The notes under the pieces are model-generated. The model saw nothing but the letters and a program-made list of their open reading frames with translations. It made no database searches and had not been told where the DNA came from. 64,000 bases of DNA, taken from Phenylobacterium deserti (lineage in GTDB: Bacteria; Pseudomonadota; Alphaproteobacteria; Caulobacterales; Caulobacteraceae). Positions 15,879 through 47,166 of this stretch are shown one piece after another. The translations under genes and the position numbers were made by a program. Where the stretch lies: assembly GCA_943332615.1 (NCBI GenBank), contig CALQQB010000019.1, forward strand, positions 1-64,000, written 5' to 3'. The first letter of the stretch is position 1; each line of letters opens with the position of its first letter.

Positions 15879-16021
15879 TCCTTCCCCTTTATGGGGAGGG
15901 TGGCGAGCGAAGCGAGACGGGTGGGGAAGTGTGGGCCGGAACTGGGCGCTGAAATCCCGCCCACACTTCCCCACCCTGGCCGCTTACGCGGCCTGTCCCT
16001 CCCCATAAAGGGGAGGGATTT
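15879..16021. repeat. Two-armed inverted-repeat element without a gene
   Basis: The left arm (about 15879-15935) and right arm (about 15960-16021) face each other around 24 bp. Each holds a CCTTTAT- or CATAAAG-centred hairpin with flanking CCCC/GGGG runs, then a second segment, then GGTGGGGAAGTGTGGG. The right arm's second hairpin is GGCCGC-GTAA-GCGGCC read on the minus strand. The right end finishes GGGGAGGGATTTGCG, the same as the DUF559 unit at 19036-19514. The right arm overlaps the 3' end of trmFO. Confidence 0.8.
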
Positions 16022-17393
16022 GCGCCCACGCCGCAAGGTCCGCCAGCGCCCGCTCGCCCACGGCGCGCTTCTTCAGCCGCGTCTTTTCCTTCGACCCCAG
16101 CCGGTTGCCCTCGGCGTCGCGCTTCGGCGGCTCGATCGCTGGCATCAGCCCGTAGTTGATGTTCATCGGCTGGAACGAACCTTTCCCCCCGTCCAGGTGC
16201 CCGCCGGTGATGTGTCCCACCAGCGCGCCCATCGCAGTCGTTGCGGGTGGCGCGGAGATCGGGCGGCCCAGCCGCTCAGCGGCGGCGAAGCGGCCGGCCA
16301 GCAGGCCCACCGCGGCGCTCTCCACATAGCCCTCGACGCCGGTCACCTGGCCGGCGAACCGCAGGCGCGGATCGGCCTTCATCCGCAAGGTCCCGTCCAG
16401 CAGGCGCGGCGAGTTGATGAAGGTGTTGCGGTGCAGGCCGCCCAGCCTGGCGAACACCGCCTTCTCCAGCCCCGGGATCATCCGGAAGATATCGGTCTGG
16501 GCGCCGTGCTTCAGCTTGGTCTGGAAGCCCACCATGTTCCACAGCGTGCCCAGGGCGTTGTCCTGCCGCAGTTGCACGATGGCATGGGCCTTCACCAGCG
16601 GGTCGCGCGGATTGGTCAGGCCCACCGGCTTCATCGGCCCGTGGCGCGGGGTCTCGCGCCCGCGCTCTGCCATCACCTCGATCGGCAGGCAGCCATCGAA
16701 GTAGGGGACATGCTCCCAGTCCTTGAACTCTGATTTCGGGCCCGCTAGCAGAGCGTCGATGAAGGCCTCGTACTGGTCCTTGTCCATCGGGCAGTTGATG
16801 TAGGCGGCGGCGTCGCCGCCCGGGCCTTCCTTGTCGTAGCGCGACTGGCGCCACGCCACGTCCATGTTGACGCTCTCGAAGTGGAGGATCGGCGCGATGG
16901 CGTCGAAGAACGACAGCTGATCCTCGCCGCCCAGCTCCAGGATCGCGGCGGCCAGCGCCGGCGAGGTGAGCGGGCCGGTGGCGATGATGACGCTGTCCCA
17001 CTCGGCCGGCGGCAGGCCGGCCACCTCCTCGCGGGCGATGGTGACCAGGGGGTGGGCTTCCAGGCGCGCGGTCACCGCCTCGGCGAACCCGTCCCGGTCC
17101 ACCGCCAGCGCCCCCCCGGCCGGCACCTGGTGGGCGTCGCCCGCCGACATGATGATCGAACCCAGGGCGCGCATCTCGGCGTGCAGCAGGCCGACCGCAT
17201 TGCCGGTCCAGTCGTCGGCGCGGAAGGAGTTGGAGCAGACCAGCTCGGCCAGCCGGTCGGTCTGGTGGGCGTCGGTGCCGCGCACCGGGCGCATCTCGTG
17301 CAGCACCACGGGAACGCCGGCCTCGGCGATCTGCCAGGCGGCCTCAGAACCGGCCAAGCCGCCGCCGATCACATGCACAGGGGTCATTGTCAT
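15984..17393 (-). CDS. trmFO: tRNA U54 methyltransferase TrmFO (folate/FAD-dependent)
   Basis: TrmFO makes ribothymidine at position 54 of tRNA using methylenetetrahydrofolate and FAD. The 469-residue protein has the N-terminal FAD-binding [16 protein letters not shown] (about 8-23), [26 protein letters not shown] with its conserved cysteine, and [11 protein letters not shown] in the C-terminal part. A start two codons later is equally possible. The last roughly 11 residues ([10 protein letters not shown] and neighbours) are encoded by the right arm of the repeat at 15960-16021, so the natural C-terminus has been replaced or extended by the repeat. Confidence 0.96.
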
Positions 17394-19035: not shown

Positions 19036-19514
19036 TAAATCCCTCCCCTTCATGGGGAGGGTGGCTCACGCCGCAGGCGCGAGCCGGGTGGGGAAACCGG
19101 TGCTGCTTCCAGCGCCGCGCGGATCGAATACATCACGCCTTCGAGATTCTCGCGAACCTCACCATTCCAGAACCGCAGAACCTTGAAGCCTTCACGCTTC
19201 AGAACGGAGTCGCGGATGGCGTCGTGCGCCGCCTGTTCAGCGCCCGCGTGCCCCTCGCCATCCACCTCAATGACCAAACGCCGAGAGAAACAGACGAAGT
19301 CGAGATAGTAGCCTCGAAACGGCGCCTGACGGCGGAAGTGGAAGCCTTCAGCGCGAAGGCGCTTGAGGCCCGACCAGAGGATGACCTCGGGCTTCGGCAT
19401 CGAATTCCGAAGATCCCGAGCACGATAGCCCTTGGCCGTGTACGGCATACTGTTTCCCCACCCGGTCCGCGCAGGCGCGGACCACCCTCCCCATAAAGGG
19501 GAGGGATTTGCGAC
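19036..19514. mobile_element. Inverted-repeat unit carrying a DUF559 nuclease gene
   Basis: Left arm 19036-19098 and right arm about 19452-19514 are near-identical inverted copies. Each has CCCTCCCC-N5-GGGGAGGG, then a second hairpin, then CGGGTGGGGAAAC. The second hairpins differ in sequence but both pair: GGCTC...GAGCC with inner CGCC-GCA-GGCG on the left, GGTCCGCGC-AG-GCGCGGACC on the right. The DUF559 gene fills the whole interior, with its last 16 codons inside the left arm and its ATG only three bases from the right arm. A gene-less relative is at 15879-16021. No clear target-site duplication was found; a GCCTAA copy occurs near each side but not flush. Confidence 0.75.
19050..19448 (-). 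CDS. DUF559 (Vsr-like PD-(D/E)XK) endonuclease
   Basis: A 132-residue protein of the DUF559 family, related to very-short-patch-repair and restriction nucleases. Candidate catalytic residues are Glu21, Asp50 (YLDFVCF) and Glu61/Asp63 (VIEVDGEGH). The family hallmark DAIRDSVLKREGFKVLRFWNGEV is at 76-98. The gene lies wholly within the inverted-repeat unit: its final residues (PPGSRLRREPPSP) are translated from the left arm, and the GGGGA of the right arm sits about seven bases before the ATG as a likely ribosome-binding site. This gene-repeat fit suggests the nuclease acts on, or mobilises, the repeat. Function is inferred. Confidence 0.85.
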   Translation of the reverse strand: MPYTAKGYRARDLRNSMPKPEVILWSGLKRLRAEGFHFRRQAPFRGYYLDFVCFSRRLVIEVDGEGHAGAEQAAHDAIRDSVLKREGFKVLRFWNGEVRENLEGVMYSIRAALEAAPVSPPGSRLRREPPSP

Positions 19515-28372: not shown

Positions 28373-28465
28373 GGTCTTCTCCCTGGCGGGGTTCAAAGGA
28401 CCACGACTCAGGGGGCAGGCCGGGCGCGCGCGCGGAGACGGAATCCCGCCGCCAGCGTGCTCGAC

Positions 28466-28628
28466 CGTTCTCATAACCGGACTATGACCGTCGGCCCCGG
28501 GATCACACCGGGTCTGCTCGACCCTGCCTCCCCGTATGACGGGAAGCCAGGCGCCCGCGGGCTCGTCCCAACCTCTTGCGGGGGAGGGCATTACCGCCGG
28601 TGGGGAGTTGCACCCCGCCCTGAGAACG
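28466..28628 (-). promoter_or_regulatory. FMN riboswitch (RFN element)
   Basis: Read on the minus strand, all RFN landmarks are present. The closing stem is TGAGAAC-type (28622-28628 with 28467-28473). GGGGTGCAACTCCCC is followed by ACCGGCGGTAAT, then AGCCCGCGGGCG, then a GACCCGGTGTGATCCCGGGGCCGACGGTCATAGTCCGG-like 3' half, seen in pieces across 28474-28515. No T-tract terminator follows. The segment 28441-28455 can pair with 28383-28394, just ahead of the ribH2 ribosome-binding site, so control is probably at translation. The rest of the 402-base gap 28373-28774 shows only a weak promoter candidate. Confidence 0.95.
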
Positions 28629-28659
28629 CAGGCCGCCGGAAGGTCCGACGGCAAGGGCA

Positions 28660-47076: not shown

Positions 47077-47103
47077 AAAAAAAGCCCGGCGCGTGCGCCG
47101 GGC
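47077..47103 (-). terminator. Minus-strand intrinsic terminator without an obvious gene
   Basis: Read on the minus strand, GCCCGGCGC and GCGCCGGGC form a 9-bp stem followed by seven T. No protein gene on the minus strand leads into it. It may end a short RNA started from the CtrA-type box at 47167-47181, or serve as a two-way barrier before mpl. Confidence 0.65.
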
Positions 47104-47166
47104 GTTACTGAGTTTGGTGATGGTGGGTGCCTTCGAAGAAGACGCCCTGACAGTCGTCTGTCGAGG

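Follow-up and report, generated by a model that had tools for sequence, protein, structure and literature searches.

The locus raises the question of whether a short nuclease gene that exactly fills a pair of inverted repeats forms a mobile unit and, if so, whether the nuclease is the enzyme that acts on the repeats. We consider it probable, at roughly 0.7, that the window (the whole 64,000-nt stretch of Phenylobacterium deserti DNA analyzed) contains a complete copy of a mobile repeat system with triplex-type ends, for which the DUF559 nuclease would be the cognate enzyme. The whole unit (arm, DUF559 gene, arm) spans 19036–19514 between GST and uvrA and is full, gene-less, or absent there in relatives. 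Its left arm (19036–19098, + strand) comprises hairpin 1 (19041–19061; CCCTCCCC/GGGGAGGG), hairpin 2 (19062–19085), and a tail, GGGTGGGG (19086–19093); its right arm (19452–19514, − strand) comprises hairpin 1 (19485–19505), hairpin 2 (19464–19484), and a tail (19456–19463), and both tails face the gene. The original prediction that these arms are inverted copies was borne out by 87% identity over 61 columns. Chance pairing was ruled out, as the flank inverted-repeat score at the window DUF559 gene was 80, compared to a maximum of 36 among 1141 placements elsewhere in the fetched loci. Each arm, as single-stranded DNA, folds into the two hairpins that had been proposed, and 0 of 200 shuffled sequences were equally stable. 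The gene (19050–19448, − strand, 132 amino acids) also fits the arms as anticipated: its ATG (19446–19448, − strand) lies three bases from the right arm, with GGGGA ~6 nt upstream, and its last 16 codons, stop included (19050–19098), lie in the left arm.

The window protein matched only DUF559 and MTES_1575 in Pfam, the former, in agreement with the initial assignment, at E = 1.7e-32 (PF04480). DUF559 is the one credible gene in the unit, and no DDE, HUH, or recombinase enzyme was found among the unit's genes by Pfam and the ORF list. No Rfam match was found at the unit at gathering scores. A known defense system was rejected, as the PADLOC matches were weak (best E = 2.4e-4) and covered no more than portions of large proteins. 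Elsewhere in the window, 28463–28631 and 47080–47139 match an FMN riboswitch and the Caulobacter CC0196 sRNA, respectively, both of which are ordinary. Across 150 DUF559 domains, E21, D50, E61, D63, H67, D76, R79, and R92 (numbered as in the window protein) are conserved in 146–150, and an alignment of 19 sequences (A1) agrees on the conserved residues. The predicted structure of the window protein (mean pLDDT 82.7) matches 3hrl (NGO0050, also matched in sequence by phmmer at E = 2.1e-19), I-Bth0305I (3r3p; E = 9.5e-5), and Vsr (1vsr; E = 1.6e-3). Thus, both the family match and the catalytic residues place the protein among the DUF559/EDxHD nucleases, and the modeled fold identifies DUF559 as a Vsr/homing-endonuclease-like nuclease that, given selection on its catalytic residues, would be expected to cut nucleic acid. 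We take its catalytic pattern to be that of I-Bth0305I and Vsr. DUF559 shares its fold with both of these enzymes; homing endonuclease genes are mobile, lack inverted arms, and target a single site, and Vsr is a mismatch-nicking enzyme that is not mobile.

Comparison of arm families revealed a common architecture. From the outside inward, an arm consists of hairpin 1 (CCCTCCCC-loop-GGGGAGGG), a variable hairpin 2, and the tail GGGTGGGG toward the gene. This tail mirrors the hairpin 1 purine strand GGGGAGGG, with T replacing A, and this rule is kept in other families (GGGGAGAGGG with GGGTGAGGGG, GGGAGAAGG with GGATGAGGG, and GGGAGGAGG with GGAGGTGGG), including A-rich arms (AAAGGGGGA with AGGGGGATT; locus L174). 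We scored the rule on purine-strand hairpins picked irrespective of the tail (134 from 150 DUF559 loci, 70 of them distinct). Over the 70 distinct hairpins, the mirror match was better than the direct match in 29 cases, worse in 4, and tied in 37 (Wilcoxon p = 9e-6); it exceeded the match of shuffled strands (p = 6e-10) and was perfect in 24 hairpins, compared to perfect direct matches in 7. By its order, the mirror tail reads as the code for an intrastrand triplex of the purine motif, with G on G:C and either A or T on A:T. Hairpin 2 was scored in 150 arms listed from the window's genus and order, which are part of all matches. A stem of at least 6 bp was present in 98 of these 150 arms compared to 5.2% of shuffled inserts, or in 95 compared to 2.0% of shuffles when only Watson–Crick pairs were counted. 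The same arms contain 48 different stems of at least 5 bp, so the sequence of hairpin 2 is free and its pairing is kept. The mirror code and the kept pairing together suggest that a folded single strand is under selection, and the hairpin 2 stems have almost no G–T pairs, which fits DNA. The proposal that the nuclease recognizes folded single-stranded DNA or RNA can thus be narrowed, in that the triplex code and the few G–T pairs favor single-stranded DNA and disfavor RNA as the probable substrate.

Because they carry a hairpin and the mirror-tail code, the window arms can be assigned to an already published repeat class, the PIT/TM motifs; the pairing of this class with DUF559 appears to be new as far as the searched open-licence PMC papers go. 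As far as the available text of PMC4666352 goes, intrastrand triplex motifs occur in many bacteria, with 23 copies of one such motif counted in E. coli K-12 and ~100 in N. gonorrhoeae; CD and NMR show in vitro triplex formation by the E. coli motif, which is linked to local genome variability, and in vivo DMS footprinting gave no triplex signal in E. coli. The mirror code suggests that triplexes could form in cells. The arms resemble the published motifs (PIT, TM/TMECO; PMC4666352, available parts) in their hairpin and mirroring third strand, A + B inverted pairs, multiple copies, intergenic placement, and local variability. They differ in being tied to DUF559 genes, whereas the motifs are described, in the same parts of that paper, without a mobility gene; the words endonuclease, Vsr, and ycjD are absent from its available text. 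The window arms also differ from the published motifs in carrying a hairpin inside a long loop: they combine a hairpin, purine strand, and mirroring third strand (GGGGAGGG/GGGTGGGG) as triplex motifs do, but 24 and 21 nt (hairpin 2) separate strand from tail, compared to 1–5 nt in other families and to the loops of 1–6 nt used in the published motif search (PMC4666352, available text).

The arms also occur in pairs that lack a gene. Among the 150 listed arms, 34 neighboring pairs lie less than 150 nt apart, of which 32 are inverted with tails inward, one is inverted with tails outward, and one is in tandem. By a two-type rule of this analysis, 29 of the 32 tail-inward doublets join one TGG-type and one ACAG-type arm, a typing that drew on 90 of the 150 listed arms, mostly chosen as close pairs; the remaining 60 added one tandem pair and slightly lowered the hairpin 2 figures. 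The five close inverted pairs of E. coli motifs likewise all pair type A with type B (5/5), according to the available text of PMC4666352. Doublet spacers measured 42–43 nt in genome G059, 42 nt in G060, 35 or 41 nt in G020, and 16–20 nt in G031. Four tail-inward pairs among the listed arms have a gap of 150–1000 nt (in G000, G021, G029, and G060), and each encloses a DUF559 match. By eye, gene-bearing units (L002, L056–L071) mostly pair like arms (A/A or B/B), compared to the A + B pairing in 29 of 32 gene-less doublets.

In the host genome, the window left arm has 19 further matches at E ≤ 0.01, beyond the unit's own two arms. A gene-less doublet of the unit's family lies at 15879–16021, formed by a diverged arm found by sequence match (15879–15928, + strand) and a second, inverted arm (15967–16021, − strand); one arm of the doublet is too diverged to out-fold shuffles. 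The second arm encodes the last residues and stop codon of the ORF at 15984–17393, which is presumably TrmFO, so the repeat seems to have lengthened a host protein. The second DUF559 gene of the host genome (locus L003) has another arm family with 16 matches, 2 at the gene and 14 elsewhere.

We determined how generally DUF559 genes are linked to arms with a detector that requires a hairpin, purine strand, and mirror tail and allows one mismatch each in stem and tail. Of 398 genomes searched across the phylum, 145 had a DUF559 match and 110 had one with E below 1e-10, and the phylum sample of 69 loci (29 new best-per-genome loci and the next 40 unfetched in list order) leans to strong DUF559 matches because of the list order. 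Within 300 nt of the gene, arms with the tail toward the gene were present on both sides in 34 of 69 loci, on one side in 31, and on neither side in 4, and an arm of either orientation was present in 67. The original prediction, which would have lost its footing had most DUF559 genes lacked arms, thus held up, as 65 of 69 phylum loci have a gene-facing arm. Among 50 loci from relatives (30 best-per-genome loci followed by 20 more in list order, with one contig-end locus skipped), gene-facing arms were found on both sides in 30, one side in 11, and neither side in 9. In 27 loci from genome contigs, three of which reappear among the uvrA-site loci described below, these numbers were 21, 3, and 3. 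The four own-genome loci gave 1, 1, and 2, with L003 scored as armless even though its arms are clear by eye; the detector therefore also misses clear arms. Stop codons lie inside the downstream arm or at most 40 nt before it in 35 of 45 loci (relatives and own genome) and 25 of 53 phylum loci. Two DUF559 genes in genome G314 (L125 and L146) are flanked by very long inverted repeats (scores 201 and 171) with no gene-facing arm detected, and may have another arm type.

Control genes behaved differently. Gene-facing arms were detected at 0 of 30 genes for YraN (PF02021), a PD-(D/E)XK protein (PMC1189080, available text), and at 0 of 30 GIY-YIG genes, ruling out arms as a feature of any small nuclease. 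Arm density was 0 in 98 kb of YraN loci and 3 in 95 kb of GIY-YIG loci, compared to 60 in 308 kb of DUF559 loci more than 500 nt from the gene. Inverted-repeat scores exceeded 36 in 1/30 YraN, 7/30 GIY-YIG, 39/69 phylum DUF559, and 35/49 scored relative loci. The phylum sample likewise ruled out a restriction of arms to Caulobacterales. Beyond the phylum, an Anaerolineales contig (L080) has both arms and a Chitinophagaceae contig (L081) has none. The enzyme–repeat system thus spans Pseudomonadota, with one Anaerolineales case.

The number of arms also tracks the gene. In 72 genomes of the window's genus, at least 5 window-family arms were present in 21 of 43 genomes with DUF559, counted only at E below 1e-10, compared to 0 of 29 without it (p = 2e-6; Spearman 0.70). 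Across the phylum, the pattern GGGAGAGGG...GGGTGAGGG occurred at least 4 times in 68 of 110 strong-DUF559 genomes and in 13 of 288 others (p = 5e-34), and its reversed control gave 5 matches overall. As the genomes are related, these p values overstate the association. The pattern is absent from 27 of the 110 strong-DUF559 genomes. The 13 motif-rich genomes without strong DUF559 include G316 (70 copies), G414 (99), G257 (141), and G278 (143), the last two of which are incomplete, and suggest that repeats can outlive the gene or perhaps spread by another helper.

Arms resemble one another according to the protein they accompany, not the genome they lie in. Between genomes, protein identity and flank similarity were correlated (Spearman 0.31; 122 loci), with a maximum of 0.10 in 300 permutations. 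Flank repeats were shared (score >50) in 2 of 25 same-genome pairs with less than 50% protein identity, compared to 29 of 45 different-genome pairs at 70–80% identity. Because flank windows include some coding sequence, a second test was confined to detected arms (113 of 123 loci); at protein identity below 0.8, it gave a correlation of 0.28 compared to a permuted maximum of 0.13. Median similarity of the detected arms was 0.33 at 40–50% protein identity and 0.77 at 70–80%. The host genome offers a direct case, as its L003 DUF559 gene has an arm family different from that of the window gene. Co-variation with the protein and motif counts that track DUF559 provide indirect support for the view that the nuclease itself would recognize and cut the arms.

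Absence of insertion polymorphism would have counted against a minimal mobile unit, as originally proposed, and polymorphism was found at two sites. At the window's own site, uvrA and GST occur together in 24 of 30 fetched genus loci. Five of these have the gene with arms, and in two more, arms accompany a DUF559 match that is partial or broken. In ten, uvrA and GST are less than 200 nt apart, and in seven they are separated by other, longer sequence. The ten short loci comprise a gene-less doublet (L101), a decayed doublet (L086), four loci with a single hairpin or foreign arm (L103, L111, L094, and L098), and four empty sites (L095, L099, L104, and L112). The second site, in another genus and with another arm family, carries a full 672-bp unit in G114. 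Three genomes have a gene-less doublet in its place (G521, whose flanks are 92.5 and 94.5% identical, G507, and G110), and eight have 4–31 nt, with no arm, between the matched flanks. Other sequence occupies the site in L241 and in L242, where it is perhaps a decayed doublet, and the right flank was not found in six loci. Full, doublet, and empty states thus occur in related species at both sites. Whole units are also duplicated. The 672-bp unit is present at two places of G114 with 98.8% identity that starts and stops at the arms, and no target-site duplication or cleavage site was visible by eye at the two copies. Older whole-unit duplicates in G314, G491, and G110 are 86–89% identical. Units of the genus of G114 (L030/L233 and L183) have a doublet at each end, with tails also outward, unlike the single arms of the window unit. 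Together with the dispersed doublets, the polymorphic sites and duplicated units support the proposed mobility.

Could the arms simply accumulate beside an ordinary gene? DUF559 might be a Vsr-like repair nuclease and the arms unstable or terminator-like repeats. This explanation suits the Vsr-like fold of the window protein, the mismatch-repair role proposed for the SOS-induced C. crescentus VsrA, a DUF559 protein (PMC12907096, available text), and the lone hairpin, possibly a terminator, that several relatives keep at the uvrA–GST site. It appears rather unlikely given that other small nucleases lack arms (YraN and GIY-YIG, 0/30 each), that the arms co-vary with the DUF559 protein, and that whole units duplicate and vary by presence. 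DUF559 could instead have a housekeeping or immunity role in resolving or removing triplex repeats, with the arms at its own gene as an autoregulatory operator. An operator would fit the positions of the start codon, 3 nt from one arm, and of the stop, within the other, as well as the frequent placement of stops in or just before the downstream arm (35/45 and 25/53, as above). However, removal predicts fewer motifs in genomes with DUF559, the opposite of what was observed, and leaves the duplicated whole units and per-gene arm families unexplained, making this account very improbable.

Alternatively, another enzyme (HUH/RAYT, IS transposase, or integrase) might move the arms in trans, with DUF559 as cargo. 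Motif-rich genomes without strong DUF559 are consistent with such a helper, and we know of no end-joining activity for a nuclease of the DUF559 fold. We nevertheless regard trans mobilization as quite improbable: DUF559 is the unit's sole credible gene, all four of the 150–1000-nt tail-inward pairs among the listed arms enclose DUF559, and PMC4666352 states that neither a transposase nor an integrase was found close to the motifs of E. coli. A different doubt concerns the arm structure that matters, which might be a G-quadruplex (GGGG-A-GGG ... GGG-T-GGGG) rather than a triplex, as many arms carry four G runs (for example, GGGGAGAGGGTAGGGTGAGGGGG). However, a G-quadruplex needs no pyrimidine strand, whereas hairpin 1 is kept as a hairpin; the A-rich arms of L174 (AAAGGGGGA ... 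AGGGGGATT) keep the mirror order with too few G tracts; and CD and NMR revealed a triplex for the E. coli motif in vitro (PMC4666352, available text). We give the G-quadruplex only a small chance.

If the unit is instead, as we favor, a mobile repeat system served by its own DUF559 nuclease, a mechanism can be proposed. In an exposed arm strand, hairpin 1 would form, hairpin 2 would close the turn, and the G-rich tail would fold back as an antiparallel third strand. DUF559 would most likely bind the folded arm once it is single-stranded, for example on the lagging strand, and nick beside it. The arm-bounded segment, with the gene or without it (a doublet), could then be excised or copied to new intergenic sites via host replication or repair. 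Since end joining is not expected of a hydrolytic nuclease, rejoining would probably need a host function.

The analogy to REP/RAYT systems drawn in the original prediction is apt as to kind but does not extend to membership. Like REPIN/RAYT systems, the DUF559 system has a small nuclease gene between its own palindromes and dispersed, inverted, gene-less doublets, repeat number tracks the gene, and enzyme and repeats co-vary. The REPtron arrangement of a gene between repeats that are also dispersed as inverted doublets is present. In contrast, REPtrons have an HUH enzyme with a catalytic Tyr (Y1, IS200-like), whereas the window protein belongs to Pfam DUF559/MTES_1575, has the 3hrl/I-Bth0305I/Vsr fold, and is Vsr/PD-(D/E)XK-like; the ends of the unit carry a triplex code. 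A GTAG/CGTC tag beside the palindrome was not seen by eye in the listed arms, in which the conserved extra is the mirror tail. DUF559 units also duplicate whole, whereas tnpA-REP is mostly single copy and without mobility evidence in the available text of PMC8266576. DUF559 units share inverted ends, gene-less derivatives, and presence/absence at sites with MITE and IS elements, and the empty/filled sites and exact-ended duplicates are insertion-sequence traits; they differ in having no DDE transposase and a folded motif at each end, and no target-site duplication was seen by eye at the two G114 copies.

NGO0050 (3hrl) and E. coli YcjD belong to the same DUF559 family as the window gene, and their hosts carry ~100 (N. 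gonorrhoeae) and 23 (K-12) motifs (PMC4666352, available text); the repeats are not linked to these proteins in the available descriptions. YcjD has been placed in the PD-(D/E)XK group, matching Vsr (PMC1189080, available text). In K-12, one triplex motif lies 165 nt beyond the ycjD stop codon and a decayed one lies at the stop codon itself; in E. coli strain STN0717-11, the motif at the ycjD stop is intact and overlaps the stop codon. No arm was seen by eye in the 68 nt upstream, and the locus therefore looks like a one-sided relic. By megablast, ycjD was matched in 3365 of 5426 genomes. A clean ycjD empty site was not found in two genomes without a full match (L254 and L255, beside fabI), both of which lack ycjD there and carry a TetR-regulator and RND-efflux operon instead; PMC12817139, in its available text, concerns such an efflux pump.

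We place even odds on a broader proposal from these sequence comparisons, namely that DUF559 proteins are the enzymes of an unrecognized and very widespread class of transposable element with single-stranded triplex ends, a stand-alone Vsr-like nuclease, and no transposase, and that the G/C-rich triplex repeats known from E. coli are its gene-less doublets, as by extension are those of Neisseria and further bacteria, PIT/TM motifs among them. Rhizobial RIME-like mosaic elements may perhaps also be gene-less doublets of this class. A literature search confined to open-licence PMC papers, with no preprint server, found none linking DUF559 to these repeats. The pairing would offer a candidate enzyme for published bacterial repeats that have had none and whose spread and instability lacked explanation, as well as a candidate role for the large DUF559 nuclease family. 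If this is true, RAYT-type repeat spreading would gain a second nuclease class, and a DNA triplex would become a recognized mobile-element end.

The GIY-YIG controls yielded a separate observation. Seven of the 30 GIY-YIG genes (L258, L264, L267, L271, L273, L277, and L281) lie between inverted repeats of non-triplex kinds (for example, TTCGACAAGCTCAGGGCGAACGG and GTCATTCCCGCGAAAGCGGGAATCCAG), and may represent another small nuclease family with its own dispersed palindromes.
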